Source: Prevotella sp. (GTDB taxonomy: Bacteria > Bacteroidota > Bacteroidia > Bacteroidales > Bacteroidaceae). From it: a DNA stretch of 64,000 bases. The position numbers were made by a program, and so were the translations under genes. Below are positions 7,754 through 59,918 of the stretch, piece by piece. The notes beneath the pieces are model-generated. The model saw only the letters and a list, made by a program, of their open reading frames with translations. It was not told the DNA's origin and did no database searches. The DNA is taken from assembly GCA_017458225.1 (NCBI GenBank), contig JAFTFX010000026.1:1-64000 (forward strand), read 5' to 3'. Position 1 is the stretch's first letter. The number at the start of each line of letters is the position of its first letter.

Positions 7754-7795
7754 GAGAATAAAAGCATAAAAAGTAAAAATATAAAAAATAAAATT

Positions 7796-41054: not shown

Positions 41055-44000
41055 CTATTTCACGATGATCTTCTTTCCACCACGGATATAGACTCCGGCA
41101 GGCAGACCAACGGTGTTGGCAGCATTCTTACGAACCAGTTGTCCTCGAATATCGTATATGTCGTTGCTGTCAGCTTCGCGGGCTACTGCTTGAATGCCTG
41201 TTGCAACGCTCTGCACAAAGAGCAGACCCTCGCTGATGCGGCTGGTATCCCAAGTGATTCCGTCGTCTTGTGACTCCAAAATGGGATTGCCCTCCATTTC
41301 AGTTGCTCTCCAGATGCGAATACTGTCACCGGCTTTCAGTGTGTTGTATGCAGAAGCTTTCACGCGGATGGTGCCATTCATAATCAGTTTGCTGATACCG
41401 TTGAGGCTGGCGCATCCGTTGGCGGTAGCTGTTGCACATGAGAGGGCTCCAAGAGAGAGAACACTGCCTGCATTGAACGTAACAGGCTTGTCGCCAAAGT
41501 TGAGCGTTCCTATAGAAGCACCGTCGTAGGTGCCAGGGCGTACCGTGCCGTTGACGATAACGCTTGCATTGTTCAGCGAGTTTGAGGTGCCGTGATTACC
41601 GCTCAGGCAACCATTAACTCCGATGGTCAGTCGGCCTGTTCCCAGTTTGCTGGTCGTTGAGCTCAGACCTATTTCACCCTCGTTGATCTGTGCAGTTCCT
41701 GTGTTTGTGCTGACCGCGTTCCATGTAATCTTACCAGTACCTACCTTTACGAAGTTGGCATTCGAGGTAATCTTGACTGTGTTTGTCCAGTTGGCATCGT
41801 TGCCCACCTGCCAGGTGTTAGCTCCCACGCTGACACCGTTACTGAAAGTACAGCTGCCACCGAGGGCACCAGTACCCGTCAGCTTGCCAATGCGGTATGT
41901 CTTGCCGCTGTTCTGTACCTCAACGTTGGCCGCAATGTTCATGGTGCCCTTCGGCATGCCTCCGGCAATATTCATCGTAAAACGAAGAACGGCAGGATCA
42001 TCCAGACTTGAGTTGGGCTTCAAGATGCCTTCAAAGTCGCTGAAGTCGCACTGTACAGGTGTGCGTGTGGCATAGTAGTTGGTGCCTTTCTCAGTCACGC
42101 AGTAGGCGTTCAGCGTGCCAGCTCCCGTCACCTTGTTTGTGTAGGTGGAACGGTTGGCCATATACCAATTGCCGGTCTTTCCGCTTGGAATGTTGATGGC
42201 ATAGCTGGTGCCTGTGTTCTCGCGCAGTGTGCCGCCTTGGTATTCCACGGTCTTGGCCGGGATATTGGCATTGATACACTGCACGGTGCCAGCAGCAATA
42301 ATCATCTTGTTCAAGTTTGTGTTGCTAATGTTCAGCTTCAGCCAGCCAGTACCTTTCTTCGTAAGCATGGTTCCGCTCATCGCGCGGTCTACGTTGAAGT
42401 CGGCACTGTTGTTGATGACACCTCCCTGTTCGCCGTCGAACCTAATGGCCGAACCGTTGGTGACGGTTGCCGTCGTGCGCAGCTCGGCACCGTTCTCCAT
42501 CACGAATTTGGATGCTACAGTAGTCATAGCTCCTAAGTTGCCCTTTTCCTGATTGGCATTGGCCAATGATTTCACGGTCACCACACCACCCGACAGGTGG
42601 TTACCACCCGTATAGCTGTTCTCGGTGTTGATAGTCAACGTGCCTGTGCCTTTCTTCTCCAACGAGCTGTTGCCTATGATAGAGCCGCTGCCGTTGAAAG
42701 TGTATGCCTGGGTGTTGTCTACGGTGATGATGCCAGCCTCAATCTCGTTGTTGATTTGTATGGTTCGGCTCTTGGCATCGTCATTGAATGCGATGTTGTC
42801 GCCCGTAACGAACCACTCGCTGTCGCCTTCTCCATTCTGGAAATTAAAGGTGTTGGCTACATCCCAGATGCTGTTCTCGTTGGCGGTCCAGATGATGTCG
42901 GTCGGATCGCGCATGCCTAAGATATTCAGGTATAGGTTGCCATCCTCCAGTGTCAGTTTTGTCTTCAGTGTGGTGCTGATGCCTTCAATGCGGATGTTGT
43001 CCAGACTGCCAGTCACTGTTTCTGCCTTACCGATGAGATATTTGCCGACGTTGGCCTCGGTCATGTCGTGAGAGACGAACTCGAAGACAGGTGTCAGGTA
43101 TTTGGGACCATAATTCCATGACTTGGTCTCGATGGTCAGCAACTTCGTGTTCACCTGGTCGGCGGTGAGGTCACTATAGATATCGAAGATGACGCGCGAG
43201 CCAAAGCCCAGAAGCAGTGAGTCAGTGGTGATGGTGCCCTTGTTGTCGGCACGTCCGGGACGCAACTTGGCATCATAGTCCATCTTGATGCTGCGGAATG
43301 TGCCACCATTGCTGTTCAGCTCGGCAAAGCGGTTCAGCCAGAGCGATGAGTTACGCAGTGAGCCGTCGAAGTTCACGGTGCCGGCCCAGATATTGGTCTC
43401 ACCGGTATAGGTATTGTCGGTGGCAGGCAGGTTCAGAATGCCGTCGCCCTGTTTCACCAGTCGCATCGAACCTGTGAAGGCTGCACCCGTCACGTCGCAG
43501 GTGTAGTAGGTGTAGTTGATTTTCGGGTTGCCAGTGGTGATGTTGCTGTTGGTGCCCTGCACCCAAGAAGGCACGTTGAAGGTCACCATGTAGGGCTTTG
43601 CACCTTCGGCCACCGTGATCTTTGTGTCGTTGGTCTCGCAGACAATTACGTGCTGGTCGTTCTGTGCCGAGCCGATGGTGCCGTTGTTAGCTACCTCGGT
43701 GCGTCCCGTCATCGTGAAGGGTGGGGGAGTTACGGTGATGCCCTCCAGTTCGCCGATGAAGTAGCTGGCATGGGGCGGCTGGTTATAGCCGATGCTCTCC
43801 CACACCATGCCTTGGCGATACTGATGGTCGTGCCACAGCGTGTAGTTGCGGTAGTTGGTCTTTATATTAGTAGTGTACACGCGAACATATTTATTATCAG
43901 CAGTACGTGCGATGATTTCTTCGCGCCAGTCGCCCAGAATGTCGCCAGTAGCTGAGGGTGTGTTCTTCGTCCAGTTGCAGTTTGCTGTGCCGTCGGCTGT

Positions 44001-45578
44001 AAATACAATGCTGCCGTCGGCCTTGAACACACGGGCTGCTCCCTCACGAGAGTTGGCACCGTCGAGTCCCTCTTCCAGTAGGTCGCCGTCCCAGTAAATG
44101 CGGAAGTTGTTGGTGAAGCCGCCGGGGCCGCCGTCGATCACCTTGTCGCTGACGCACGAGATCGTGCCCGACTGCGATGAGTGTCCGATGGCACCGGGAT
44201 AGGCATTCGAGAAATTGCCGCACAGGGCGCGGCCGTCATCGCTGGTTGTCTTCAGGCGGTAGTATATTTTTGATGTTGTGGCATCGCGATAGTTCATGGC
44301 CGGCTCATCCTCGTTGCATGCAAATATTTCCTGACCGTGGCGATAGGGGTCAAAGTCAGAGCAGTGCTGAGCATCGCCATGTCCCAGACCAGTGGTGGAG
44401 AGACCCTTGCCGTTGTCGTCGATGACCATCGAGCCAAACACAATCTCGTCGCGTCCGTCCCAGTCAACATCGGCAATACCAAAGTTGTGATAGCCGTTGC
44501 CATACCAGGGATCGCTCCAGCCATTGTTGTTTTCCCATGACCAGTACTGTGTCAGTTTATGGGTGGTGGGGTCTACGCTGAAGGCCTTCATCATGTGGCG
44601 CGTATAGCAGCCGCGGCCCAGGAAGATGAACGGATGACGGCCGTCCAGGAACGGAGCACCGAAGTAGTGCTTCGTTGAACGGTGGCCATAGCCGTCGCCC
44701 CAGTCATCAGCAGCACCGCGAGGCAGCGGATAGGTCATCCAGTTGGGTGTGGAGCCGGAACCTATCTGATAAGGCTTGCCTGTTGCACCCTCTAAATAGA
44801 GCAGATACTCGGCACCGCTGTTGGTATAGGTCATGTTGGCTGTCTGCAGAACGGTGTTACGAGTGTTCACGTTCATGTTGCCGATGTTTACGGTCGTACC
44901 GTCGGCACAGTGAATCACCATGTTGTCGGCACCGCGCAGCAGCACCTCGGCCTTGCCGTCGCCATCCCAGTCGTAGCCCACAGCATCATACTGCTCGTCG
45001 GGTCCAGAGACCATATTGGGTCCCAGGTCGATCCACCACAAGCGGTCGCCCTTGATGTTGTATACTTCAATATGGTTATAGGCCGAGTCGTTGGCTACCG
45101 ACGAGCCGTCGGGGCCGTAGTTGCGTTTCATGATGAACTCAGAAACACCGTCGCCCGTCACATCGGCCAGTGCGATGTCGTTGATCAGATAGTCGTTGGT
45201 GATGTCGGTGCCGCGACGTGAGTACACCTTTCCTACGGGGAACTGAATGTACTGCTGGTTGAGTCGGGTCACCTCGGCGCACTTCTCCTGTTCCACGCCG
45301 CGCACCACGGCAGCCACCTGATACTTGGCTCCCGATTTTCCGCCGGTATCCGTGTAGTTCGAGACTTTCAGCGGTGTGCTGTTCACCTTGACACCGTCGC
45401 GATACAGGTTGTACTCCGTGTCGTAGTACTCCTCGCCGAAGATGCGCCAGCTCACGAAACTGCCACTGCCTGAGGGCACGGCTACCAGTCCACGATCCAG
45501 CTTGTCGGTGGTGCGTTGTGCATTGGCGCTTGTCACAAGAGCCAACAACATGAGAGTTAGTAATAGTAATTTTTTCAT
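41055..45578 (-). CDS. PL11-type rhamnogalacturonan lyase fused to autotransporter-like repeats
   Basis: A 1507-residue secreted protein (signal LLLLTLMLLALVTSANAQ). Residues about 25-620 match the PL11 rhamnogalacturonan lyase fold: DRGLVAVPSGSGSFVSWRIF, DVTGDGVSEFIMKRNYGPDG, YDWDGDGKAEVLLRG, DVDWDGRDEIVFGSM, GDILGDWREEIIARTADNK. It cleaves the pectin backbone. Residues about 650-1440 are beta-helix-like autotransporter-associated repeats (TGETNIWAGTVNFDGSL, GTGTLTINTENSYTGGN, KVGTGKITWNAVSTNTG). A sorting-type tail (DIYDIRGQLVRKN, AGVYIRGGKKIIVK) ends it. No beta-barrel translocator is present. Confidence 0.85.
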   Translation of the reverse strand: MKKLLLLTLMLLALVTSANAQRTTDKLDRGLVAVPSGSGSFVSWRIFGEEYYDTEYNLYRDGVKVNSTPLKVSNYTDTGGKSGAKYQVAAVVRGVEQEKCAEVTRLNQQYIQFPVGKVYSRRGTDITNDYLINDIALADVTGDGVSEFIMKRNYGPDGSSVANDSAYNHIEVYNIKGDRLWWIDLGPNMVSGPDEQYDAVGYDWDGDGKAEVLLRGADNMVIHCADGTTVNIGNMNVNTRNTVLQTANMTYTNSGAEYLLYLEGATGKPYQIGSGSTPNWMTYPLPRGAADDWGDGYGHRSTKHYFGAPFLDGRHPFIFLGRGCYTRHMMKAFSVDPTTHKLTQYWSWENNNGWSDPWYGNGYHNFGIADVDWDGRDEIVFGSMVIDDNGKGLSTTGLGHGDAQHCSDFDPYRHGQEIFACNEDEPAMNYRDATTSKIYYRLKTTSDDGRALCGNFSNAYPGAIGHSSQSGTISCVSDKVIDGGPGGFTNNFRIYWDGDLLEEGLDGANSREGAARVFKADGSIVFTADGTANCNWTKNTPSATGDILGDWREEIIARTADNKYVRVYTTNIKTNYRNYTLWHDHQYRQGMVWESIGYNQPPHASYFIGELEGITVTPPPFTMTGRTEVANNGTIGSAQNDQHVIVCETNDTKITVAEGAKPYMVTFNVPSWVQGTNSNITTGNPKINYTYYTCDVTGAAFTGSMRLVKQGDGILNLPATDNTYTGETNIWAGTVNFDGSLRNSSLWLNRFAELNSNGGTFRSIKMDYDAKLRPGRADNKGTITTDSLLLGFGSRVIFDIYSDLTADQVNTKLLTIETKSWNYGPKYLTPVFEFVSHDMTEANVGKYLIGKAETVTGSLDNIRIEGISTTLKTKLTLEDGNLYLNILGMRDPTDIIWTANENSIWDVANTFNFQNGEGDSEWFVTGDNIAFNDDAKSRTIQINNEIEAGIITVDNTQAYTFNGSGSIIGNSSLEKKGTGTLTINTENSYTGGNHLSGGVVTVKSLANANQEKGNLGAMTTVASKFVMENGAELRTTATVTNGSAIRFDGEQGGVINNSADFNVDRAMSGTMLTKKGTGWLKLNISNTNLNKMIIAAGTVQCINANIPAKTVEYQGGTLRENTGTSYAINIPSGKTGNWYMANRSTYTNKVTGAGTLNAYCVTEKGTNYYATRTPVQCDFSDFEGILKPNSSLDDPAVLRFTMNIAGGMPKGTMNIAANVEVQNSGKTYRIGKLTGTGALGGSCTFSNGVSVGANTWQVGNDANWTNTVKITSNANFVKVGTGKITWNAVSTNTGTAQINEGEIGLSSTTSKLGTGRLTIGVNGCLSGNHGTSNSLNNASVIVNGTVRPGTYDGASIGTLNFGDKPVTFNAGSVLSLGALSCATATANGCASLNGISKLIMNGTIRVKASAYNTLKAGDSIRIWRATEMEGNPILESQDDGITWDTSRISEGLLFVQSVATGIQAVAREADSNDIYDIRGQLVRKNAANTVGLPAGVYIRGGKKIIVK

Positions 45579-47599: not shown

Positions 47600-49147
47600 T
47601 TATGGCTGTGTGGTCGTAAGTCCCCAGGTTGTAATCAGTTCCTCTATATCCTGCGTTTCAACCGATTCTTCAATATCGTCGGGCAGATTGTGGAAGAAGT
47701 CGATGCCCGTCAGTTGTTCCAGCGCGCGAATGTTCATGGCAAAGTTGCCGATGGGATCCTTGGTGGTATATTCCGCCGTATGGTCGACCCACAGGCCGAT
47801 GGCGGTGTAGCCTGAGAGGCTTTTGCCCAGCACGGCCATGAAGAAATAGCGCGGTATGGGTGTCTCGTTCTCGCCGCTGCCTATGTAGTTCAGAATATTT
47901 GCCTCGTTGTCAATGGTTCCGCCTTTGCAGACATAGAGCGTGTCGAACTGTGCCCCCCAGTTTTTTACTTGAGTCTCCATGCGCGACCACATGCCTGCAT
48001 TCAGCGCGTGGGTCTGTGGCATCATGTTGGTCATGAAGAACGTCTGATAGTTGGCTTCGGCTGCACTTACGCGGTCGTCGCTGGGGCAGATGTGGCCGTG
48101 GTCATAGCCCGTGCCGGGGTAGGGGTCGGCAGTGAACTGAAACTCCAAGGGCAGGTCGGGGTCGTTGGGATACTGGCTGTTGGGGCCTAAGCCCGTTCCA
48201 TGGCCGCTATAGCGGTCAACATTCTTCTCCAACAAACTGGCATAGAGCTGATAGCAACTCCAGCGCTGCGCGTTGATGTCCGGGTTCCATTCCACAGAGT
48301 AGTTCACGCCCTGCTCGCCAGTGCGGTCGTTCAGGGTGGCGGCATGAACCAGCACAATGCTGCGGTCGTCGTCGCTCAGTCTGGGGAACTCCAGTCGCTG
48401 GGTGGGGTCGCTCTCAATGATTGGGTCTTGATAGACAAAGACAATGCTGTCGATATCGGCAATATGAATGTTGGTGGCTGAATTGTATGCATAGACCACC
48501 ATACGGGCCACCTCATTGTCGGCAACGGCTGCCGTCAGCTGAGCGTCGTCAATCAAAATGTTCTGGCCGGAACTGCTCGGGTTCATGGCTACCAGGTTGA
48601 CAGTGGTAGGCTCGCTGAGCGTGAACTGATAGCTGACGGGTGTCCATTCGGTTGCTGACAGCGCGGTGTAGTTGGCAGCATACTTGTAGGTTCCCAACTT
48701 CCCGTCGGAACAGGGAACGTAGCCGGGCTTCACCTGTGCAGTGTTGTCGACGGTGGCTTTGGCGTAGAACACGAAGGTGTAGGTGCCGGCTTCGAGGGCC
48801 AGTTCCTGATAGGCGATGCGCTTGTTGCTGTTGGCCCCTTCTACCGAAACGGCATACTGCCCGCTATGGGCATTGTTGCTGATGGCAAGTTTGGCATTGC
48901 TGGCAGTCGTTGTTGACTTCCAGTGGTCGGGCATGTCGTCAGTCCAGAGTTCAAAGCTGCCATTCTCCAGCAGGTTGGGCATCTCAGCAGGCTCCAGCTT
49001 GTCTGTGTCTTGAAACAGGGTGCTGTCGGTCTTTTCAATATTGAAGACACTGCGTTTGCCGTCCTTTGTGTAGACGTGCATAAATGTCTGGGCTTGCATG
49101 CAGGCGGTAGCCAGTACAGCAGTTATCAAGATTAGTAGTCTTTTCAT
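47600..49147 (-). CDS. Secreted DNA/RNA non-specific endonuclease with binding domain
   Basis: A 515-residue exported protein. After the signal (LLILITAVLATACMQAQ, which may also serve as a lipobox) comes a carbohydrate-binding-type beta sandwich (LLENGSFELWTDDMPDHWKS, to about residue 215). The C-terminal half is a His-Me finger nuclease (NUC1): GYDHGHICPSDDR holds the DxGH catalytic motif and TNMMPQTHALNAGMWSRME the metal-ligand Asn. It would degrade extracellular DNA and RNA. It lies downstream of a TonB receptor and two OB-fold lipoproteins in the same orientation and has its own promoter motif. Confidence 0.88.
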   Translation of the reverse strand: MKRLLILITAVLATACMQAQTFMHVYTKDGKRSVFNIEKTDSTLFQDTDKLEPAEMPNLLENGSFELWTDDMPDHWKSTTTASNAKLAISNNAHSGQYAVSVEGANSNKRIAYQELALEAGTYTFVFYAKATVDNTAQVKPGYVPCSDGKLGTYKYAANYTALSATEWTPVSYQFTLSEPTTVNLVAMNPSSSGQNILIDDAQLTAAVADNEVARMVVYAYNSATNIHIADIDSIVFVYQDPIIESDPTQRLEFPRLSDDDRSIVLVHAATLNDRTGEQGVNYSVEWNPDINAQRWSCYQLYASLLEKNVDRYSGHGTGLGPNSQYPNDPDLPLEFQFTADPYPGTGYDHGHICPSDDRVSAAEANYQTFFMTNMMPQTHALNAGMWSRMETQVKNWGAQFDTLYVCKGGTIDNEANILNYIGSGENETPIPRYFFMAVLGKSLSGYTAIGLWVDHTAEYTTKDPIGNFAMNIRALEQLTGIDFFHNLPDDIEESVETQDIEELITTWGLTTTQP

Positions 49148-49171
49148 GATAGGTTATTCTATTTGTCACTG

Positions 49172-49179
49172 CAAAAATA
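49172..49179 (-). promoter_or_regulatory. -7 element for the nuclease gene
   Basis: TATTTTTG on the minus strand, 24 bp before the start codon. No -33 TTTG is seen. Three phased palindromes lie upstream. Confidence 0.55.
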
Positions 49180-49234
49180 CATATTTTATTTTTATTATCA
49201 GTCAGCATCAATCATGTTATTGTTGTTTCTTCTC

Positions 49235-49297
49235 GAATTTATGCATAAATTGGATGAATTTTTGCATAAATTGACTGAATTTACGCATAAATTGTTT
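49235..49297. repeat. Three tandem 21-bp palindromic repeats, possible operator
   Basis: Units start at 49235, 49256 and 49277. Unit 1 holds the perfect 16-bp palindrome AATTTATGCATAAATT; units 2 and 3 differ by one base (AATTTTTGCATAAATT, AATTTACGCATAAATT). The 21-bp spacing puts all sites on one face of the helix. They lie about 55 bp upstream of the nuclease -7 element. Confidence 0.75.
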
Positions 49298-49325
49298 TTG
49301 AATCATGGTGAATGCTGCAAAGAAA

Positions 49326-49363
49326 AAAGAGCCGCAACATCGGGATGGATGCTACGGCTCTTT
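49326..49363 (-). terminator. Terminator after the OB-fold lipoprotein gene
   Basis: AAAGAGCCG and CGGCTCTTT form a stem around a 20-nt loop, followed on the minus strand by a further T-run. It separates the lipoprotein transcript from the nuclease gene. Confidence 0.8.
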
Positions 49364-49382
49364 CGGTATCAATTGAAATGAT

Positions 49383-51134
49383 TTACTTTGCGTAGGTGAT
49401 TGTCATGGTCTGAACACGAAGCTGGACACCGCCCTTGGCTTCCGTGTGGTCGTTTACAATCGTAAACTGATTGCCGTTGATGCTGCCATAGAGCATATCG
49501 TTGCCGATATATGTTGTGCCGCTGTAGACATCACAGGTCATGACAACTTTTGCAACCGGAGCCTTTCCGTTGATTGTGATAGTGTTCTTGGCATAAACGC
49601 GCACGCCCTTGGTAGCTGTGTAGAAGGCTGGCGCATTGGTGGTGTTCTCACCTTTACCAAATGCAATCGTTGTTCCGTCGCTCAGCGTAACACTTGTTGC
49701 TGCAGCTCCATTAGTGAATCCCTGTTCGTTGAAGTCTACTGTCACAACGTCTGACGATTCTGTTGCCGAGGTGTTGGTCAGTGTAATCACATTGTCGGTA
49801 ATGCTCTTTGCTGCCTTTGTTCCGTCGACAGATGGCTCGGGATCGTTGCCGGGGTCGTTGCCTTCACCGTCTTTGGATACCAGTACGCCGCCATTTATCT
49901 CAGGAGTCATAACACCCGAGTTCTTGTTGACGTATTTCATCAGCTTACCCTTGACGACAACATCCATGCCTACTGCCAGATCTGTCTGTGCGGCAAAGTC
50001 AGTTCCATTGACGTTCTTACCGTTATAGATCTGAATTTCGTTTGTAGTCTGGCCGTCATCAGAGATATAATAGGTAATCACGCTGTTGCTGTAGTAACCC
50101 TTAATCTGCGAAATCTTACCTTTGACAAATGCCTCTTTGCTTGTTGATGCACCGTCATCCAGTTTGTTGATTTCTGCCAAGGCTTCGGCTACAGTGATAG
50201 GATTCTTTTCAGTACCAATGGTCTCGTCATTGCTGGGCTCGCCGCCATTTTTCGATACCAGTACGCCGCCGTTCATTTCGGGAGTCATAACGCCCGAATT
50301 CTTGTTGACATACTTCATCAGCTTGCCCTTGACAATGACTTCCATGCCTACAGCAAGGTCGGTCTGTGCGGCAAAGTCTGTTCCATTAACATTCTTACCG
50401 TTATAAATCTGAATCTCGTTTGTCGTCTGACCGTCATCAGAGATATAATAGGTGATTTGGCTGTTGTTATAGTAACCCTTAATCTGCGAAATCTTACCCT
50501 TGACGTATGCCTCTTTGCTTGTTGATGCACCGTCCTCCAGTTTGTTGATTTCAGCCAAGGCTTCAGCTACAGTGATAGGATTCTGCTCGGTGCCGATGGT
50601 GTCGCCCTCAGGATTAGGGTCATCACTTGAGTCATCCATGCTTAATATCTTGCTACCATACTGGAATTCAAGCGTGTTTCCTTTGAAATTGATGACTTTT
50701 CCACAAACTTTAACTTTTGTACCGAGTTTTAAGTCGGAATCTGATGTGAACTTTTCTCCATTGAGTCCTAATCCACCATAGACATAAAACTTCTGAGAAA
50801 GTCCTTCTTTGTCATCTGTAATATAATAGTCGAGTTCACCGTATATTTCCGTAAATTTCCCTACTTGAGCCACATAGCCTACGACAAATATATCAGTTCC
50901 ATTATTAAGAAGTTCATCTGCACCAAGATTGTTGCATGCAGCAAATAAGCCAGCAACATTGTAAGGGTCATCTGTCGTACCGCTTCCTTTAGGATCTGCA
51001 TTCGGAACATCATTGCCATTGTTCTGGATTACATAATCATAAGGATTGTTGTATGGCTCTGGCACGTCCTCACAGGCAGTGAAGGTGCTGGCGGCGATGG
51101 CAACGGCCATCATGCTGTAAAATAGCTTTTTCAT
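49383..51134 (-). CDS. Lipoprotein with three OB-fold nucleic-acid-binding domains
   Basis: A 583-residue lipoprotein (lipobox FTACEDVPEPY). It has three OB-fold units at residues about 52-165, 179-296 and 305-421; the last two are near-identical copies (NPITVAEALAEINKL, VKGKISQIKGYY, TTNEIQIYNGKNVNGTDF, VIVKGKLMKYVNKNSGVM), duplicated at DNA level. A C-terminal beta sandwich (about 440-583) follows. OB folds of this type are annotated as nucleic-acid binding. It lies 42 bp after the DUF5689 gene and would sit on the cell surface beside the TonB receptor. Confidence 0.8.
   Translation of the reverse strand: MKKLFYSMMAVAIAASTFTACEDVPEPYNNPYDYVIQNNGNDVPNADPKGSGTTDDPYNVAGLFAACNNLGADELLNNGTDIFVVGYVAQVGKFTEIYGELDYYITDDKEGLSQKFYVYGGLGLNGEKFTSDSDLKLGTKVKVCGKVINFKGNTLEFQYGSKILSMDDSSDDPNPEGDTIGTEQNPITVAEALAEINKLEDGASTSKEAYVKGKISQIKGYYNNSQITYYISDDGQTTNEIQIYNGKNVNGTDFAAQTDLAVGMEVIVKGKLMKYVNKNSGVMTPEMNGGVLVSKNGGEPSNDETIGTEKNPITVAEALAEINKLDDGASTSKEAFVKGKISQIKGYYSNSVITYYISDDGQTTNEIQIYNGKNVNGTDFAAQTDLAVGMDVVVKGKLMKYVNKNSGVMTPEINGGVLVSKDGEGNDPGNDPEPSVDGTKAAKSITDNVITLTNTSATESSDVVTVDFNEQGFTNGAAATSVTLSDGTTIAFGKGENTTNAPAFYTATKGVRVYAKNTITINGKAPVAKVVMTCDVYSGTTYIGNDMLYGSINGNQFTIVNDHTEAKGGVQLRVQTMTITYAK
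49872..50600. repeat. Internal tandem duplication in the OB-fold lipoprotein gene
   Basis: Segments 50247-50600 and 49872-50222 encode nearly the same 117-118 residues with few DNA differences, offset by 378 bp. This points to a recent duplication or gene conversion. Confidence 0.85.
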
Positions 51135-51176
51135 ATATTTATAATCTTTTTTGTTCGGTTAAAAGTTATTCTTCTA

Positions 51177-52484
51177 TTAGTTGCCCTCGGCATTGATGGA
51201 CACGATGTAGCAGCCCTGCGTGAACTCGGGGGTGTTGCCCTTGAAGTTGACCAGCTTGCCGCAGATAACTACTTTGTCGCCTTCTTTGATGATGTTTGCG
51301 TCAGTGATAGCCTGATTGTCAAGACCTTTGGCGCGATAGACGGTCAGCATGTTGCCGCCCTCTTTCGAATCGGCAATCATGAAAGTGGCATTACCATAAC
51401 CCTTTCCATCTATTTGCGGAGAAACTTCGCTAATGGAAACTATATAGCCCTCGGCATATACATTTTCTGTCGTACCGGTTTCTCCAACTTCTTCACATTT
51501 TGCCAATGCAGCGGCAACGTTGAAGGGATTATCGGCAGTTCCCGTTCCCTTGGGGGCGATTGTTTCGGCACCATCGTCGGTGGGCTCCCAGTCATCGGGC
51601 AGTTCAACTACATCGTCTTCGCTGCGGATGATGATTTCCCACTGGTCGCGATAGCGCTTGAAGACACCCGTGATCTGAAGCTTCTTGTGTGAAAGCAGTT
51701 TGGCAGCAAAGTCGGCATAGCAGCTGGTGTAGATCTGCACACCGCCCGTCTGTCCGTCGTTCTGCTCGTTGAAGTACCATGAGGTGGAGTAGTCGGGGTG
51801 CGAATAGGTGGAACTCTCCGTAAAAGGTACGTTGCTGATGTAGTTCTTCAGGTCAGAGTTGTAATAACCACCGTTTTTCACCGTCACTCCCACCAGTACA
51901 CCCAGCTTGCCGGCATCGGTGTCGATGTTCCACTTGGTGGGGTTCTTGCCGACGGCAAACACTTCGGGCTTTACTTCCTTCTTCTGGCCAGTGTACTTGA
52001 AGTGCTGCTGCCAAAGCATGCGAGCCATGCGGCTGACGCTGACCTCGCCGTCTTTGTCAGTGTAAGGTGTGCCGATTGTGGGACTCTTGCGATAGTTGCC
52101 AACATACAGTCCGCGCAGGTCAATCAGGATCTCAGTGCCCAGCGGCAGATAGCCATAGACACCACCCTGGGCGATGCCGATGAAGATGGCTCCCGTCTCG
52201 TCCTGAATAGAGATTTCGTTGTACATGTTGCCCTGGATGTCATTACCCGTGACAACACCTTTGATCTGGATGTCTTCCTTGATTTCCTTGTATTTTCCTT
52301 CTGTCGTGAACTCGGTATTGAACTTTGCCTTCAATGCCTGAATGGTCATGACGTTGGTTTCCTGGATGCTATTGTTGCCATATACGCTTTCGGCAGGAGT
52401 CTGAGGATCGTCCCAGTCCTTGTTCATGCACGAAGTCATGGCTCCGCATACAAGTGCTAAAAACAGATATTGTATCTTTTTCAT
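51177..52484 (-). CDS. DUF5689 lipoprotein with C-terminal OB fold
   Basis: A 435-residue lipoprotein: start MKKIQYLFLALVCGAMTSC with lipobox AMTSC. The upstream-extended frame overlaps the receptor gene and is not used. The DUF5689 region (about 45-290) includes IQIKGVVTGNDIQGNMYNE, SIQDETGAIFIGIAQ and GVFKRYRDQWEIIIRSEDDV. The C-terminal OB fold (about 315-430) resembles those of the next gene (GTADNPFNVAAALAKCEEVG, GDKVVICGKLVNFKGNTPEF). By position it is the surface partner of the TonB receptor, analogous to SusD. Confidence 0.82.
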   Translation of the reverse strand: MKKIQYLFLALVCGAMTSCMNKDWDDPQTPAESVYGNNSIQETNVMTIQALKAKFNTEFTTEGKYKEIKEDIQIKGVVTGNDIQGNMYNEISIQDETGAIFIGIAQGGVYGYLPLGTEILIDLRGLYVGNYRKSPTIGTPYTDKDGEVSVSRMARMLWQQHFKYTGQKKEVKPEVFAVGKNPTKWNIDTDAGKLGVLVGVTVKNGGYYNSDLKNYISNVPFTESSTYSHPDYSTSWYFNEQNDGQTGGVQIYTSCYADFAAKLLSHKKLQITGVFKRYRDQWEIIIRSEDDVVELPDDWEPTDDGAETIAPKGTGTADNPFNVAAALAKCEEVGETGTTENVYAEGYIVSISEVSPQIDGKGYGNATFMIADSKEGGNMLTVYRAKGLDNQAITDANIIKEGDKVVICGKLVNFKGNTPEFTQGCYIVSINAEGN

Positions 52485-52503
52485 AACTTTTTCCTCCTTT
52501 CTT

Positions 52504-55107
52504 TTAGAACTTATATGCAATGTTCAGCATGCCGTTGATGCCGTAAGCATAATATTTCTTCGGGTTACGGGCGAAAGAGTAGGCACGCATGTTGCTGCTT
52601 GCGGTATAGTCACTACGGCTCTGCTCATAGCCGCCGGTCACAATGTTCTGGTTGTTAAGCAGGTTGGTCACCGAAAGGTTGATGCTCATAGAGCGGCCAT
52701 GCTTCAGCCAGATGCTCTTGCCGATAGACAGGTCGAGCATGAAGCCGCCGTGTCCCTTCTCCTGTTCCAAAGCACTCATCAAGACGTTGCCAGCATTGTC
52801 CATAACGGTCTCGCCTGCCTTCTGGCGTGCTTTCAGTGTTGACTCGTAGCGATAGCAGGGCGAGTAGGACAGGTAGATGCGGTCGTAGTAGTTGCCATTC
52901 ACATCAATGAACCATCCACCCTGATGGTAGCTCAGAATGAGGCTCAAGGCGGTCAGCGGTGTACCAGCCTCGCGCATGTTCTTGTTCAGTACCATTTCAG
53001 GCTGGTTGTCGTTGTTGTCATTGTAGGTTCCGTCGGTCGAGCTCATATACCACACACGGGCATTGTTCGTGTTCTTGGCCTCGCTGATGGTTCCCAGAGT
53101 CTTGATGTTGAAAGCGCTGGTCAACTTGAAGTTCAGTCCCCATTCCACACCGTAGTATTCTTTGTTGATGCCGGTCATGGAAACGTAGGAGAACGAGTTG
53201 ATATCGTCGAAGTAGAAGTTCTGCCACTCGGTAGCATCCTTCACCTGGCTGTAGTAGCCGCTGATGTTAGCTTTCAGCCAAGAGGTCTGCAGCTGATAGC
53301 CTACTTCGCCGCTCAGCACCTTCTCGTTCTTCAGGTCGACCACGAAGTCGTTGTTGATCTCGGGTGATACAAAGGCTGTTGAGGCCTGTGGGGCTTTCTG
53401 CTCATAGCCACCGCCAAGGGTGATGGCATTGCCCTTGCCGAGGTTGAAGGAGAAACCAATCTTTCCGCCGCCCTCCAGGAACTTACCTTTCTTGCTCTTG
53501 CCGAAAGAGTTGTCGAACGAGGTGCCATCGGCCAACTGTACGAATCCCATGCCGTTCGACATCTTGCCTTCGCGCTGCATCTCTACACCGGCTACACGAC
53601 CACTGATGAACGAGTGAACACGTCCACGGTCGTACTTAAAGGTGAGCCAGCCGGCAGCCTTGTTGACAAACAGGTTGTAGTCGTAGCCGAACTTGTCGCC
53701 TTCCTTGACAATACCGTTGGGATTGTTAGTGTCATACTGGATACGGGGATCGTTGGGGGCATACTTGCCCAAAGCATAGGTGTTGATGTTGTGGAACTGC
53801 TGGGCACCCATCAGATCGTCCATGGTCTGATAGTGCATGCCCTTGTTGGTTGCCAGCTGAACACCCAGGTTCAGCGATGCATAGCGGTTCAGCTCTTTGT
53901 TCAAACTTGATGCCAGGGCGATATTCAGGTTGTCATTATGCTTGGCCTGAATGTAGTACATAGCGTCCTGGCCCTGTGCTGCTGCAGCGTGGTTGGCTGC
54001 ATAGAGACGGTCGAAGTTGATCTGACGGTCTTCCTTGTAGCCAGAGAATATGGTTTTTGCACGCAGCCAGTCGCTCTGTGCCTGCTCCGTGCGCAGATGG
54101 CCCAGTCCTTCGCGTCCCCACACGTCATAGTAGCTGGAAGGCATGTTTTTCCAGTAGTCGGGATGGGGGTTGTCGGCATTGTTGTAGTTCAGCTTCGTGC
54201 TCTTATACATAGAGTAGCGACCCGTGACGGCAGTGGTGAGCTTGGTGCGTTCGTTGATCTGCCAGTCCCAAGTGGCCAGCAGGGTGGGGGCGAAGTCGTT
54301 CACCACGCGCGAGTTGCGCTTTTTGCCGTTCTGATAGCCCCAGTAGGGGTTGTAGTAGCGGTCGTTGGCCAGCCAGTAGCACTCGTCGGTGGCTGCACCC
54401 TGTCCAGCTCGCTCAGTAGGGTTACCCCAAGTGACGATAGAGATGTGGTGCTTGTCGCCAATGAACTTCTCGGCTCCGAGGAAATAGGAAAGCGAGTTGT
54501 AGAACGTTCCTTCCACATAGCCAGTATTCATGTCGGCCCAACGGTAGGTCAGGTTGGCTGAGAATGCCCAGCCGTTCTGTAGAATACCGCTGTTGTAGGT
54601 GTACATGCCGCGAAGTGTGTAGTTGCGGTTGGCACCTGTCAGCGTGAGGCGCTGTCCGGTGGCAAAGTGTGACGGACGGAAGTTGTAGTTGTTTGAGCCG
54701 CCCATGGCCGACATGCTGAAGCCGTTGTTCTCGAATGGCAGCGAGTGTTCAACATCGCGTGTCTGTTGGTTCAGACCACCAACCAGCGAAAAGCGGAACT
54801 GGCCGGTCTCCATGTCGTTCATGGGAACGCCGTTGATGAAAATTTCATTGTACTTTTGATTAAAAGCACGATAGCGGAAACGTACGGGACTGAACAGATA
54901 GCCCACCTGTGAGGCGTAGATGTTATTGTTCGAGTTGACGATGGTCACGTTCTGCGACATGTCATCGTCTTCTCCCAGCTGAGCTTCCGTGAAGGTGAAT
55001 GCCTGCTCGTCCTGAACGCCTACAACTCCCAGGGAATCTTCTTCCTGGGCAATGGCAGCCGAAGAGAAACAGAGCGCAAACACCAAAAATTTCAGCTTTT
55101 TGCTCAT
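52504..55107 (-). CDS. TonB-dependent outer-membrane receptor
   Basis: An 867-residue receptor: signal FLVFALCFSSAAIAQ, a plug domain (NVTIVNSNNNIYASQVGYLF, EIFINGVPMNDMETGQF) and a long beta-barrel ending in aromatic GINGMLNIAYKF. The usual N-terminal carboxypeptidase-like domain of SusC proteins is absent. It is the first gene of a unit with the DUF5689 and OB-fold lipoproteins and nuclease, suggesting nucleic-acid-derived substrates. A consensus promoter lies upstream. Confidence 0.88.
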   Translation of the reverse strand: MSKKLKFLVFALCFSSAAIAQEEDSLGVVGVQDEQAFTFTEAQLGEDDDMSQNVTIVNSNNNIYASQVGYLFSPVRFRYRAFNQKYNEIFINGVPMNDMETGQFRFSLVGGLNQQTRDVEHSLPFENNGFSMSAMGGSNNYNFRPSHFATGQRLTLTGANRNYTLRGMYTYNSGILQNGWAFSANLTYRWADMNTGYVEGTFYNSLSYFLGAEKFIGDKHHISIVTWGNPTERAGQGAATDECYWLANDRYYNPYWGYQNGKKRNSRVVNDFAPTLLATWDWQINERTKLTTAVTGRYSMYKSTKLNYNNADNPHPDYWKNMPSSYYDVWGREGLGHLRTEQAQSDWLRAKTIFSGYKEDRQINFDRLYAANHAAAAQGQDAMYYIQAKHNDNLNIALASSLNKELNRYASLNLGVQLATNKGMHYQTMDDLMGAQQFHNINTYALGKYAPNDPRIQYDTNNPNGIVKEGDKFGYDYNLFVNKAAGWLTFKYDRGRVHSFISGRVAGVEMQREGKMSNGMGFVQLADGTSFDNSFGKSKKGKFLEGGGKIGFSFNLGKGNAITLGGGYEQKAPQASTAFVSPEINNDFVVDLKNEKVLSGEVGYQLQTSWLKANISGYYSQVKDATEWQNFYFDDINSFSYVSMTGINKEYYGVEWGLNFKLTSAFNIKTLGTISEAKNTNNARVWYMSSTDGTYNDNNDNQPEMVLNKNMREAGTPLTALSLILSYHQGGWFIDVNGNYYDRIYLSYSPCYRYESTLKARQKAGETVMDNAGNVLMSALEQEKGHGGFMLDLSIGKSIWLKHGRSMSINLSVTNLLNNQNIVTGGYEQSRSDYTASSNMRAYSFARNPKKYYAYGINGMLNIAYKF

Positions 55108-55149: not shown

Positions 55150-55181
55150 CAAAGGTACTCAAAAAAGGTCTATCAACCAAA
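55150..55181 (-). promoter_or_regulatory. Promoter for the TonB receptor operon
   Basis: On the minus strand TTTG (55181-55178), 20 bp, TACCTTTG (55157-55150). Confidence 0.8.
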
Positions 55182-55247: not shown

Positions 55248-55700
55248 TCAGTACTTTCTGAAGTGGAGGCGATAGAGTTTGTTTGTCAGCACCATGTGTT
55301 CGCCGCCCAGTTCCTGAATGTGCAGGACGGACTCTAGAACACTGTCGGCATTGTAGGTTCCAACGATGTAGTAGCGGGCCAGTGTGGCAGAGTCGTGAAC
55401 GATGCTGTCGGAAATCCTTTTGTGGTTAACGATGGGGTTCCAGATGCGGAGGATGTCGCCTGCCTTGTCGAAACGAAAAAGCAAACTGTTAAAGGGATTA
55501 TAATTGTCTCTTACTTCCAGCAGGTTGACTTGTACCGACCAGAATAGGCCAGAGTTGCGCATGTCGGCAATGCCGCCTGCCAGTGTGTCTACTTGGCGAA
55601 GTTGCCAGTATCCGTCCAGTTCTCCATTGTCAGAGGTCTCGAAGTCGCAGGCGGCAAAAACGGCGCAGGCGGATATGATGAGATATAATAGTTTCTTCAT
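55248..55700 (-). CDS. Lipocalin-like lipoprotein
   Basis: A 150-residue lipoprotein with lipobox AVFAACDFETSDN and a small beta-rich domain (ELDGYWQLRQVDTLAGG at the start, LLFRFDKAGDILRIWNP, NKLYRLHFRKY at the end), as in lipocalin-like proteins of Bacteroidetes. It is the last gene of the inositol-lipid unit, 5 bp after the Wzi gene. The ligand is unknown. Confidence 0.65.
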   Translation of the reverse strand: MKKLLYLIISACAVFAACDFETSDNGELDGYWQLRQVDTLAGGIADMRNSGLFWSVQVNLLEVRDNYNPFNSLLFRFDKAGDILRIWNPIVNHKRISDSIVHDSATLARYYIVGTYNADSVLESVLHIQELGGEHMVLTNKLYRLHFRKY

Positions 55701-55705
55701 GTTGC

Positions 55706-57262
55706 TTATTTCTTGATGTTAAGTCGTTTGCTGATGGTGAGTTGGCCGCCGGTGTTGTTGCCAAGCAGTCCGCCGTGGTCCAGTCCGAAGGCGGCCTTGA
55801 CAGCCCATCCGGCCAGTTTGTGTCCGTTGGCAAAGCGGTATTCAGCCTCGGCCAGCAGACTCATGTTACGCTCTGGGTCGGGCAGTGGATTGTCGTACGT
55901 TCCCCATCCGCGCTGCCAGGTGGCCAGCACGCGGTAGTGCAGACCTTCAAGAGGGTCGCCGCTCAGTCCGAAGTGCCAAGCCCAGAAACGGTTGTTCGCT
56001 ACTCTGGCTTCAGGAGTGGTGTTGTAGAGGGGTGAACGGTAGAGTGGGTTGCCCATTACCTGTCCCCAGTGCTGCCATCCTGCCTGATAGTAGTTGTTGT
56101 AGTAGTTGTCGCGTCCGGCAATATGGTCGGAAAGATAGTAGGTGCGGTCGTGGTAGATAGGACCGCTTTGATACTTGGTGTAGAGGTATTCCACCACAAT
56201 ATCATTCAGCCAGGGATTCTTTTTCAGTTTCAGTTCAGTTCCCATCATCATGTCTTTCAGGTCGTAGATGAGCCAGCGGCTGTCTTTCCACTCGTTGAAC
56301 TCTTCGCCGTGTCCATAGCCGTCGTAGTCGAGGAAGAACATCTGTGAGTGATCTTCAAAGAAGTGATCGGCATAGACCCCCAGATACCAGTCGTCGAAGT
56401 CCATGTTGACACGCAGCACATAGCTGCCTAAGTGGTTGCCCGAGGCATTTGCATAGATATCTTCGCCTGCATCGCCGCCACTGGGTATCAAGGCGTGAAA
56501 CATACCTTTGAGGCCGTCTTCGTTCTTGACGGCAATATATTCTATGGTGCCAGGTACTGAAGGATAGGGGTTCTGCACATAGCTTGTTCCACCGTACTGA
56601 CAGGCCATTTCGATTCCCATCTCTACGCTGACAGGCTTGTCTGCCTTGCCGATGCGCAGATAACCAGCTTTGGTGTGCAGTTTGGTATGTTCCGTGCGTT
56701 TGTAAGGCTCTGCTGTGAAGTCTTTCTGCCAACCGTCGTCGGTGGGCATGCCATAGGCAATATGTCCCTTAAATCCCAGCCAACCACGGGTGTAGGGCAC
56801 TGTCCAATAGTCTGGCAGCGACAGCCGGATGCTGGGCACGGGCCGTGCATTGATGCCCAAAGTCTGCGAACCGCTACTCAGTTCCTGATTCTTCAGCTCC
56901 ATGGGCTGCTCTTTGCTGCCTACGGTGAGCAGTCCTTTCAGCCAGCGCACGTCAGCGTAAGCCTGCTGGACTGCTACCGTGCTGGTGTAGCCTCCTGCAA
57001 CAGCAATGTCGGCACCGTAGGCGATGGCCCAGCGACGGGCTGAGTCGGCTTCCATGGAATGGAAAATACCGGCCCTTAGGTAGCCATTACTTGTCTTCAG
57101 CGAACTGAGACCGTACTTGTTGGCGTTCAGCCAAAGTGGTGTGTGGTCGCCCGATGTTGCGGAATACTGTGCCTCAGTCCGCACTTCCCACTGTGCCTGT
57201 ACTGTCAGTGAGACAGCGCTTAGCAATAGAGCACATAGGGGTCTTGTCAGTAGTTTCGTCAT
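55706..57262 (-). CDS. Wzi-family outer-membrane protein
   Basis: A 518-residue outer-membrane barrel of the capsule-assembly Wzi family. MTKLLTRPLCALLLSAVSLT starts a signal ending in VQAQ; then EAQYSATSGDHTPLWLNANK, GADIAVAGGYTSTVAVQQ, SLPDYWTVPYTRGWLGFKGH. ATG 57262 is chosen because it overlaps the preceding stop by 4 bp and begins a signal peptide; the longer frame overlaps the PAP2 gene. Here it is coupled to lipid genes rather than capsule genes. Confidence 0.8.
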   Translation of the reverse strand: MTKLLTRPLCALLLSAVSLTVQAQWEVRTEAQYSATSGDHTPLWLNANKYGLSSLKTSNGYLRAGIFHSMEADSARRWAIAYGADIAVAGGYTSTVAVQQAYADVRWLKGLLTVGSKEQPMELKNQELSSGSQTLGINARPVPSIRLSLPDYWTVPYTRGWLGFKGHIAYGMPTDDGWQKDFTAEPYKRTEHTKLHTKAGYLRIGKADKPVSVEMGIEMACQYGGTSYVQNPYPSVPGTIEYIAVKNEDGLKGMFHALIPSGGDAGEDIYANASGNHLGSYVLRVNMDFDDWYLGVYADHFFEDHSQMFFLDYDGYGHGEEFNEWKDSRWLIYDLKDMMMGTELKLKKNPWLNDIVVEYLYTKYQSGPIYHDRTYYLSDHIAGRDNYYNNYYQAGWQHWGQVMGNPLYRSPLYNTTPEARVANNRFWAWHFGLSGDPLEGLHYRVLATWQRGWGTYDNPLPDPERNMSLLAEAEYRFANGHKLAGWAVKAAFGLDHGGLLGNNTGGQLTISKRLNIKK

Positions 57263-58182
57263 GATATGTATTTTGTGTATGTTTGAATGATTCGTTGAAA
57301 TGCCGACCATCGCATGAGTACGCCTTCGAACAAAGCGATGCCAATGAGAGCCGTCATGATGCCCAGCAAGACATCTATGATGTAGTGATGACATGTATAG
57401 ACAGCCGTACACCAGATGCCCACTGAAATGATGCCGCAAAGTGTGATGAGCCATCGCGGTTGCCGGCTCATGATGGCATAGATGGTAGCCGTCAGCATGT
57501 AGGCGGCATGTAGCGATGGAACCGCTGCAAAAATATTGGAGGCTTTTACATATATGGTGGCAAAGAGCGGAAAGCCTATCAGTTCGTCAAAACGTGCCAG
57601 TCCAGCAGAGTTTGCAGGGGTTGTGAAGTCCGGTTCAAAGCCGTAGTTAATGGCATACCAGGGTGGGGCGGCAGGGTGGACATAATAGCCAATGAATCCA
57701 ATGATGTTGACTAACAGGAAAGCCCATGTGAAGCGAAGCCCCCACTGGCGTTCGCCTTTTAAGAAAAGCCATACAGAAAAGGCGATGGGGCCCGGCACCC
57801 AGCAGAGATAGAACAGTCCAGCCAATAGGTCGGCTACAGGGTGATGATGCAGATTAAAGTATTCGCCAGGAATGAGCGTCCCGTTCTCAGTAGCAATGCC
57901 GAACAGTGCTTTCTCTGCATCGTAGAGCCCTTGTATGTCGATGGGGTTCACTTCGTAGTTGGGACAGAGGCGCATCCAGTCGTAGCTGATTTCGAATAGA
58001 ACGAAGGGAATGCCCATCAAGGCGAACTTGCGCGTCAGTGGGTGGACAAAGAACAGAACGTTGAAAACCAGCACCATAGCGAGCTGTGCTGACGTGAGTC
58101 CCACTATCAGCCACTGTAATAGCAGAAAAACTGCCGAAGCCGACAGCTCAATAACGGTCTCTTTTCGTGAAACGTAGTTCAT
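57259..58182 (-). CDS. PAP2-family transferase, probable inositol phosphorylceramide synthase
   Basis: A 307-residue multi-pass protein of the PAP2/AUR1 type: GYYVHPAAPPWYAINYG, AVPSLHAAYMLTATIYA and TCHHYIIDVLLGI give the active-site histidines. In Bacteroides thetaiotaomicron a similar gene in a similar cluster (BT_1522) makes inositol phosphorylceramide; the assignment here rests on gene context plus motif resemblance. It lies 39 bp after the CDP-alcohol transferase gene. Confidence 0.8.
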   Translation of the reverse strand: MNYVSRKETVIELSASAVFLLLQWLIVGLTSAQLAMVLVFNVLFFVHPLTRKFALMGIPFVLFEISYDWMRLCPNYEVNPIDIQGLYDAEKALFGIATENGTLIPGEYFNLHHHPVADLLAGLFYLCWVPGPIAFSVWLFLKGERQWGLRFTWAFLLVNIIGFIGYYVHPAAPPWYAINYGFEPDFTTPANSAGLARFDELIGFPLFATIYVKASNIFAAVPSLHAAYMLTATIYAIMSRQPRWLITLCGIISVGIWCTAVYTCHHYIIDVLLGIMTALIGIALFEGVLMRWSAFQRIIQTYTKYIS

Positions 58183-58221
58183 TCGTGGTTGTTTTCGTGA
58201 TTGCGTTATTACGAAATATCG

Positions 58222-58860
58222 TTATTTTAATTTTTTGTAGCAGTGGGCAATTCTCCAGAAAGCGGTGATGTTGGCCAGCACGGCAATGAGTGTCATGCCG
58301 CCTGCCAGCCACCACAGGTTCTGGGTAATGCCTGTGATGATAGCAGCAACAGCTGTGACCACCACACGCTCAGGCCGCTGCATCAGTCCCACCTTGCACT
58401 CAATGCCCAGCCCTTCAGCACGTGCCCTTACATAGCTCACCATTACTGACCCCACCAGGGCGGCAAAGGTGATGACACCCGTCCAGAACCAGTCGGCCTC
58501 GATGAAGACGAGACTGATGCCGAAAAGTGTTACCAGTTCGCTGTAGCGGTCAAGCGTAGAGTCCCAAAGGGCTCCGAAGCGCGATGACAGGTTTCCCATG
58601 CGAGCCAGTCGGCCGTCCATCATGTCGAACAGTCCTGCGACCAGGATGATGAAGCCGCCCCAGCCAATCAGACCGAACGAACTCTCAGGCATCTGTTGCC
58701 AGCTTATAGCTGCATCCAGGAAGAATCCCAGCGCCAGCAGGTTGCCTGCAAAGCCGGCTGCAGTAATGCCGTTGGGTGTGATGCCCAGTTTGATCATCCC
58801 TTTGATGAAAGGGTCGATGCAATAGTAGATGATTTTTTGTAAGAAGTCGCGATAGTTCAT
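58222..58860 (-). CDS. CDP-alcohol phosphatidyltransferase, probable PI-phosphate synthase
   Basis: A 212-residue membrane enzyme with the CDP-alcohol motif in [28 protein letters not shown] written in the family form DGxxAR-x8-Gx3-Dx3-D. Other membrane helices follow. In the inositol-lipid cluster it would join CDP-diacylglycerol with inositol phosphate. It overlaps the GtrA gene by 4 bp. Confidence 0.82.
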
Positions 58861-59285
58861 ATTTCAATTCTCAATTTCTCCCTCAGGTGGGTTTCCTTGT
58901 AGACAAAATTGCGCTGCAGCATGTAGTTCCAAAGAACGGCCACGCAGACGGCTACTACGATTTTGGGGAAGATGAAGTAGTGTTGTGATAATTCGGTCAG
59001 TGCATAGGTGCCCAGTGTGTTCAGCACGATGCTTCCTGTCCATACAAAGAGGTACTTGCCCAATACGTTCGTTCTTTTCAGTCCCATGGTGTCGAATACC
59101 CATCGGTAGTTCATGGTGCAGTTCGTCAGTCCTCCTGTCAGTGCACCGAGAAATGACGACCATACATACCAAAGACCGGCGCATTCGGCTAAGACGATTG
59201 TCACCGCAAAGTCGATGAGCGTTGCTATCTGGGCGGTCAGTTGCGCTTTGCAGAATGTCCATATTTCCCGGCCTACTTTTCCCAT
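58857..59285 (-). CDS. GtrA-like small membrane protein
   Basis: A 142-residue protein with four membrane helices typical of Gtr[54 protein letters not shown] and [19 protein letters not shown]. GtrA proteins help flip lipid-linked sugars. In this cluster it may flip an inositol lipid intermediate. It overlaps the PgpA-like gene by 13 bp and the CDP-alcohol transferase by 4 bp. Confidence 0.8.
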
Positions 59286-59743
59286 AATAATATTATAAGG
59301 TATAGAACGATGAGCGAATAGATACCGGCCAGCAGGTCGTCGGCCATCACCCAGAAAGCACCTTTCCGCTTGTCAAGACTACGAATGCCGAGCGGCTTCA
59401 CGATGTCGAAGAATCGGAACAGCACCAGTGCCATCAGGGCCTGTTGCCAATTGGCGGCAATGAGTAGCGGTGTCCACACTCCTACCATCTCGTCGACCAC
59501 CACGCGGCTCGGATCGTCGCCCCAGTAAGGTTGCAACAGTTTGGTGGCCCATGTTCCCAAGGCGGTAAACACTACGATGCAGAGTGCAGTCAGCAAGCAT
59601 AGTTCTGTCGGGCCTGTCAGCGATAGTCCGCCCAGCCACAGCAGTGTAGCCAGCACGGATCCTGCCGTTCCAGGTCCCCAGGGCCAGAACCCAGCACCAA
59701 ATCCTGTGCCAATGATTGTCGGAATGATGGGTGGTTTCTCCAT
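59273..59743 (-). CDS. PgpA-type lipid phosphatase, probable PI-phosphate phosphatase
   Basis: A 156-residue protein of the phosphatidylglycerophosphatase A family: GTGFGAGFWPWGPGTAGS, DDPSRVVVDEMVGVW and FRFFDIVKPLGIRSLDKR with membrane helices. Next to a CDP-alcohol transferase and an inositol phosphate synthase it more likely removes the phosphate from phosphatidylinositol phosphate, as described for the Bacteroides cluster. First gene of the minus-strand unit. Confidence 0.83.
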   Translation of the reverse strand: MEKPPIIPTIIGTGFGAGFWPWGPGTAGSVLATLLWLGGLSLTGPTELCLLTALCIVVFTALGTWATKLLQPYWGDDPSRVVVDEMVGVWTPLLIAANWQQALMALVLFRFFDIVKPLGIRSLDKRKGAFWVMADDLLAGIYSLIVLYLIILLWEK

Positions 59744-59852
59744 TTGGGTGCAAAATTAACTATTTTATCCCAAATAAGAGGGATTATGTTCTAAAAAAAT
59801 TAATTTAATTAAAATCGTCTTTTAAAAAGCGTCGTTTTATGAAACAAATCAT

Positions 59853-59860
59853 TACCTTTG
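59853..59860 (+). promoter_or_regulatory. -7 element for inositol-phosphate synthase gene
   Basis: TACCTTTG, 58 bp before the start; no clear -33 TTTG. Confidence 0.6.
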
Positions 59861-59918
59861 CACGTTAATTGTTATATAAATAAGAAAAACAACACTTAGA
59901 AATTGAAAACAAACAGAT

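Follow-up and report, generated by a model that had tools for sequence, protein, structure and literature searches.

Two genes of the build considered here are known from a transformation screen in Riemerella anatipestifer: the product of RA0C_RS04915 lies in the outer membrane and has a PF13620 domain, and that of the adjoining RA0C_RS04920 carries DUF5689 and DUF5017 (PMC8459023). Markerless deletion of either gene left transformants undetectable, so both are essential, and the authors proposed that RA0C_RS04920 binds DNA and RA0C_RS04915 moves it across the outer membrane (PMC8459023). We describe an arrangement of similar build in a stretch of 64,000 nucleotides from Prevotella sp. (JAFTFX010000026.1, positions 1 to 64,000; hereafter the window), in which a gene for an outer-membrane receptor (REC), two lipoprotein genes and a nuclease gene lie in a row. 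It corresponds to contig C10 of a genome with a size of 2.24 Mb and a completeness of 74.7%. We propose, with a probability of roughly one half (0.52), that these genes form an outer-membrane module importing DNA, most likely for natural transformation, with the use of DNA breakdown products as a probable second function.

The Riemerella model leaves the DNA-trimming enzyme unidentified, and no nuclease is named at that locus in the available part of the paper (PMC8459023). In the same organism, tonBA and tonBB mutants transform less, which is not the case for a tbfA mutant; the authors tie the tonBB effect to iron (PMC8383284). Within the Bacteroidales, a paper of 2024 still described as unclear how DNA reaches the periplasm of Porphyromonas gingivalis (PMC11532111, available part). 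For a published Bacteroidales DNA-uptake receptor our search of the open-access PubMed Central literature returned only the Riemerella work, and DUF5689 turned up there in the Riemerella screen alone.

As in Riemerella, the window has a TonB-receptor-type barrel gene adjoining a DUF5689 gene. The window receptor lacks the carboxypeptidase-like (PF13620-type) domain and its partner lacks DUF5017; in addition, the window has a lipoprotein with OB repeats and a nuclease of the NUC1 type. A second point of comparison is offered by SusCD pairs, polysaccharide utilisation loci and the PusCD phosphate loci (PMC8115612), which likewise combine a TonB-dependent-type receptor, lipoproteins and an exported hydrolase. 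The window differs from these in that it has no SusD-family match, its lipoproteins are of the DUF5689 and OB types, its hydrolases are nucleases, and none of the Pfam barrel models recognises its receptor.

Receptor and lipoproteins

The four genes follow one another on the minus strand between 47600 and 55107, all at the positions where the initial annotation had placed them. REC (52504..55107, 867 amino acids) is a divergent outer-membrane protein of TonB-dependent-receptor type, with a signal peptide recognised by eye (SSAAIAQ). Its nearest named relatives are Prevotella-type records with at most 73% identity. One receptor, 60% identical to that of the window, comes from a record titled Eggerthellaceae bacterium UBA5906 (L137); as this name is actinobacterial, the metagenome genome was perhaps binned or labelled wrongly.

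On its own, the window REC matched no Pfam or NCBIfam model and no sequence in the PDB. At the family level, an NCBIfam scan yielded nothing useful, and a PDB search with the REC profile gave matches confined to the N-terminal carboxypeptidase-like stretch. A profile of 24 family members aligned with four receptor proteins over 842 columns (hhalign probability 100, E = 4.4e-90); two of these four were scanned with Pfam, and Plug was found in both and the TonB barrel domain in one. A Plug match at E <= 0.01 was also present in 10 of the 24 family members. Judged by this family profile, REC is a relative of TonB-dependent receptors, with plug and barrel homology along its full length. A carboxypeptidase-like domain occurs in 17 of the 24 members (PF13620 in 16) and is absent from the window REC. 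Because so many homologues keep the domain, its absence here is probably a derived loss. The initial annotation was thus right that this receptor lacks the domain and is not half of a standard SusC pair, even though most homologues carry it. We rejected a standard SusCD pair on the same ground and because no SusD-family match was found among the window proteins scanned.

The second gene (51177..52484, 435 amino acids) encodes a lipoprotein with PF18942 (DUF5689) at 194 bits. Translation likely starts at the ATG at 52484 behind AAAGGAGG rather than at the listed TTG at 52520, and by eye Cys-19 is followed by MNKDWDD, a surface-export-like sequence. The nearest NCBIfam name is M949_1556, and the DUF5689 model also matches in Bacillus subtilis. 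The protein had been described as carrying an OB fold as well; the DUF5689 assignment holds, but the OB-like C-terminal stretch scores 23.3 bits, under the Pfam cut-off of 27.

The third gene (49383..51134, 583 amino acids) encodes a lipoprotein with PF01336 at 35.5 bits (cut-off 27) and a lipobox recognised by eye (...TAC-ED). Of the three OB folds originally claimed, two are near-identical repeats starting at residues 181 and 307, and the earlier, divergent first unit was recognised by eye only. Relatives scanned at the position of this gene matched OB or DUF6359 models. When PDB sequences were searched, neither the OB protein nor the DUF5689 protein or profile had a match.

REC and the DUF5689 gene are separated by 19 bases, and the DUF5689 and OB genes by 42. 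Behind the OB gene, on the same strand, lies an intrinsic-terminator-like hairpin of 17 pairs with a T tail (49364-49325). The number of terminator-like sites in the region is not above that in shuffled sequence (11 against a mean of 11.1); this hairpin has by far the longest stem, all other sites in the region having at most 7 pairs. The motif TAnnTTTG, which we take to be the Bacteroidetes promoter element, occurs on the minus strand upstream of REC (55150..55157) and upstream of the NUC1 gene (49172..49179). Two further copies on this strand between 46900 and 58300 lie inside the OB gene and upstream of a Wzi-like gene. Because of the intervening hairpin and the motifs before REC and NUC1, the REC, DUF5689 and OB genes probably form one operon and NUC1 a separate transcription unit.

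The pairing of receptor and DUF5689 lipoprotein extends well beyond the window. At E <= 1e-10, 195 of the order's 295 genomes contained a match to REC, and 80 loci were hand-picked from the top of this ranking, with a few rows skipped and one genome of the window's own family (G165) added; we refer to these as the order set. With the REC profile, 46 of 296 genomes scored at least 440 bits, 43 of them in other orders, and 40 of these 43 loci were taken. In 79 of the 80 Bacteroidales loci, and in 39 of the 40 that come from other orders in the class, REC has a DUF5689-type gene no more than 1 kb away on its own strand, the labels deriving from phmmer seeds, for which cross-hits with OB/DUF6359 proteins are possible. 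PF18942 was present in all seven partner proteins scanned with Pfam; in locus L194 it is carried by the second gene, behind an intervening 193-amino-acid gene without any match. The adjacency of REC and a DUF5689-type gene is conserved, and the idea of an orphan receptor was rejected on these counts. Of the partner proteins scanned from other orders, three of four combine DUF5689 with DUF5017, as does the Riemerella partner. From this shared build and from the reach of the REC profile into other orders, we infer that the window module is homologous to RA0C_RS04915/RA0C_RS04920.

Nucleases beside the receptor

The last gene of the row (47600..49147, 515 amino acids) encodes a NUC1-type nuclease, as originally noted. 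It matches PF01223 at 126.3 bits (cut-off 23) and has an N-terminal domain of the CBM_4_9 type (46.3 bits). The catalytic His, two Asn and Glu, whose roles we assume from the Serratia nuclease, are conserved in all 63 aligned sequences including that of the window. In the DRGH motif the window protein has His in place of Arg, as do 39 of the 63, and it carries Lys-395 where 55 of the 63 have Arg. A signal peptide was recognised by eye, and the protein is predicted to be exported, either as a lipoprotein or in soluble form. When 25 N-termini each of NUC1 relatives and of the second nuclease described below, EEP, were inspected by eye, many NUC1 proteins showed a lipoprotein signal followed by acidic residues, a surface-export pattern in this phylum, and the EEP proteins showed a plain signal peptide.

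EndA of Streptococcus pneumoniae is a DNA-entry nuclease of the NUC1 family with a proposed role in trimming DNA during uptake. The window nuclease belongs to the same family; EndA sits anchored in the membrane of a Gram-positive organism, whereas the window NUC1 is predicted to be exported and lies beside a TonB-type receptor. Extracellular nucleases of the ExeM/NucH and YhcR types are exported and associated with OB-type domains. In those enzymes the binding domain and the nuclease form one protein, while here they are encoded by separate genes around a receptor. An EEP relative (locus L079) gave a weak ExeM/NucH match of 32 bits against a cut-off of 300.

Three nuclease families, EEP (PF19580, Exo_endo_phos_3), NUC1 (PF01223) and endonuclease I (PF04231), were searched across 58 whole genomes, namely that of the window and the 57 order-set genomes with a stretch of at least 15 kb. 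This set was selected by length alone, after the phmmer labels had been seen, and leans to close, well-assembled relatives. EEP lay within 10 kb of REC in 50 genomes, endonuclease I in 15 and NUC1 in 12; any of the three did so in 52, and at least two families in 22. With a random position per genome, the expectation is about 0.8 genomes for EEP, 0.6 for endonuclease I and 0.4 for NUC1; the genomes are related, so that P values for this linkage are overstated. The initial annotation had held that homologous pairs consistently linked to unrelated enzymes, and to no nuclease, would speak against a nucleic-acid module, and the comparison of neighbourhoods came out the opposite way.

A regular gene order was found in a second set of 80 named, mostly Prevotella-type loci: divergent EEP, REC, DUF5689, OB/DUF6359 lipoprotein and NUC1. 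After 16 loci had been excluded for short flanks, 64 were counted, with a divergent EEP present in 55 and a co-oriented NUC1 downstream in 46; 39 loci have both nucleases and 62 at least one, while L171 and L174 have neither. EEP is the gene most often divergent from REC. A pure chance neighbourhood of nuclease and receptor was rejected in view of the linkage in 52 of 58 genomes, where chance would give less than one genome per family, and in 62 of 64 named loci. In eleven loci of other orders (L199, L202, L204, L221-L227 and L229), REC and DUF5689 are kept without EEP within 3 kb; the upstream gene in L204 encodes an MFS transporter.

Mapped on the receptor tree, NUC1 linkage requires a minimum of three changes, of which branches with good support force two, and endonuclease I and EEP linkage eight each, gains and losses being indistinguishable in these counts. 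Because the side and orientation of NUC1 relative to REC differ between lineages, the data suggest that this nuclease was recruited repeatedly.

The genome of the window departs from the regular order. Its only EEP found and a second NUC1 lie 4.8 kb apart on contig C35 (locus L112, 46000-65000), in the sequence NUC1 (5814-6851), Pyr_redox_2 (7484-8416), uridine kinase (10959-11573) and EEP (11608-12657). In a relative (L116), it is the module itself that a uridine kinase and a Pyr_redox_2 gene flank. Because of these shared neighbours, the receptor operon appears to have been separated from its ancestral partners by relocation and to lie now beside a different, CBM_4_9-bearing NUC1.

Transformation, nutrition and other readings

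In the mechanism we propose, the DUF5689 and OB-repeat lipoproteins would bind extracellular DNA at the cell surface above the receptor, and REC, as a plugged barrel of TonB-dependent type, would admit it to the periplasm with TonB supplying the energy. Surface NUC1 and, in relatives, the divergently encoded exported EEP may cut the DNA to importable pieces or strip one strand. A membrane-anchored, ComEA-like protein with three helix-hairpin-helix motifs, together with ComEC, would then take over in the periplasm. Natural transformation would be the main use and breakdown products a second one. We infer DNA binding, transport through the barrel, the order of the steps, the roles of the nucleases and activity in the organism of the window.

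Genes for ComEC, DprA, a ComF-like and a ComEA-like protein are present in the genome, all on contig C36. The ComEA-like protein has 308 amino acids, three HHH_3 matches and an N-terminal anchor recognised by eye; it resembles RA0C_RS02645 as described in the available part of PMC8459023. The NCBIfam comEA and comF matches score below their own cut-offs.

Several observations weigh against import for transformation. ComEC, DprA and helix-hairpin-helix genes are common, so their presence is weak evidence. No match to PF07075 (DUF1343), to which a further gene essential in R. anatipestifer belongs, was found in the 74.7%-complete genome. Among the 295 genomes, REC (E <= 1e-50) and a ComEA-like protein occur together in 122, REC alone in 16, the ComEA-like protein alone in 127 and neither in 30 (Fisher P = 0.08), where 57 genomes whose match is weaker are counted as lacking REC; a strict competence reading thus gained no support from co-occurrence. 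A search for HHH_3 in the 16 REC-only genomes returned frames of 700-858 amino acids and, with one match each, a few frames of 232-471 or more than 970 amino acids; two genomes had none. Seven genomes, from families f22, f60 and f109, have REC with an adjacent EEP and no recognised ComEA-like protein; two more without a recognised ComEA-like protein, G135 and G209, lay outside the nuclease comparison. On the nuclease side, six of the 58 genomes (G053, G078, G090, G134, G171 and G207) have none of the three families within 10 kb, and EEP is missing within 3 kb of REC in 15 of the 40 loci from other orders. In the window itself, NUC1 appears to be a separate unit, and the only EEP found in the genome lies with the second NUC1 on another contig. 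Homologues of RA0C_RS04915 were reported from Flavobacteriaceae only (PMC8459023, available part). That report conflicts with the homology drawn above, unless the search behind it was less sensitive.

The strongest rival is nutrient scavenging. The locus would then serve nucleic-acid utilisation: the nucleases would make oligonucleotides, the lipoproteins and the receptor would import them, and periplasmic and cytoplasmic enzymes would free and re-use phosphate and nucleosides, with transformation incidental or absent. This is a serious contender, though less likely than not. The presence of three nuclease families beside the receptor fits it, as do the seven genomes with REC and EEP that lack a recognised ComEA-like protein. 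Pyrimidine genes near REC also favour feeding: at a distance of up to 6 kb, 36 of the 80 named loci have a uridine kinase, which in many Prevotella-type loci adjoins the EEP gene, and 17 of the 80 order-set loci have a dihydroorotase (e.g., L061 4807-6162), each identity resting on an NCBIfam match of one member. Uridine kinase was not found near REC in any of the 80 order-set loci, however, and neither gene was found there in the 40 loci of other orders or in the window. A family-2 glycosyltransferase lies within the same distance in 20 of the 80 order-set loci (e.g., L073 12612-13349). Published support for feeding comes from Flavobacterium johnsoniae, in which low phosphate induces receptors together with two PF04231 nucleases; the two nucleases are listed as orphans, however, and pf18942, DUF5689, pf19580, pf03372 and pf01223 are not mentioned in the available part of that paper (PMC8115612). 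The only functional data that we found for a pair of this build concern transformation (PMC8459023, available part).

We regard import with use in transformation as somewhat more likely than feeding alone. The proposal from which this analysis started was a nucleic-acid counterpart of a polysaccharide utilisation locus. Its nucleic-acid part gained strength from the linkage of nucleases across relatives. Its nutritional part did not gain in the same way: the window proteins scanned gave no SusD match, and the only experimentally studied pair of this build that we found is needed for transformation (PMC8459023, available part).

A further account is that the nucleases clear DNA of biofilms or host nets from the cell surface, and that the receptor-lipoprotein pair imports other cargo or merely anchors the enzymes. 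The receptor shows no substrate signature, and the N-termini of NUC1 relatives, resembling acidic-tailed surface lipoproteins, and of EEP, resembling an exported protein, would suit such a function. It leaves unexplained why R. anatipestifer needs a pair of this build for transformation and why lipoproteins of the same operon carry OB folds, and we consider it improbable. The remaining idea, that REC, DUF5689 and OB make up the system and the window NUC1 is an unrelated neighbour, draws on the hairpin and separate promoter-like motif before NUC1 and on the second NUC1 and EEP on another contig, but is slightly less probable still: NUC1 follows the module in 46 of the 64 named loci, and 12 of the 58 genomes have it no more than 10 kb from REC, where chance would give about 0.4.

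Neighbouring genes and biological meaning

Directly upstream of the receptor, Lipocalin_8 and Wzi-like genes occupy 55248-57454; Wzi-like genes also occur near the receptor in relatives L123 and L124, and a lipocalin-like gene in L123. The adjoining region (57259-61229) encodes a PAP2 phosphatase followed, as recognised by eye, by CDP-alcohol phosphatidyltransferase-like, GtrA-like, PgpA-like and myo-inositol-phosphate synthase-like genes, and resembles what we take to be an inositol-lipid synthesis cluster. On the other side of the module, 41055-45578 encodes a protein of 1507 amino acids in which the domain of rhamnogalacturonan lyase family 11 is followed by matches to the passenger-associated repeat (PATR), an unusual combination.

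A receptor-lipoprotein pair of this build was already known; what is new is that it is conserved in the Bacteroidales, that nucleases of three families recur beside it and that a lipoprotein with OB repeats accompanies it. The nuclease partners would add the step that the R. anatipestifer model leaves to an unidentified protein (PMC8459023, available part). More broadly, we tentatively suggest, as a generalisation that may well not hold, that Bacteroidota bring DNA through the outer membrane by a nuclease-coupled TonB-dependent transporter with OB-fold surface lipoproteins, rather than by a type IV pilus and secretin, and that the module, spread over several orders beyond its Flavobacteria version, is a general DNA gate for transformation and feeding. 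For Prevotella-type bacteria, the receptor, the DUF5689 and OB lipoproteins and the coupled nucleases are concrete candidates for DNA import. If the proposal is correct, DNA would join iron, vitamin B12 and glycans among the cargoes of TonB-dependent receptors, and the exchange of genes in Bacteroidales of the gut and the mouth would become testable gene by gene.

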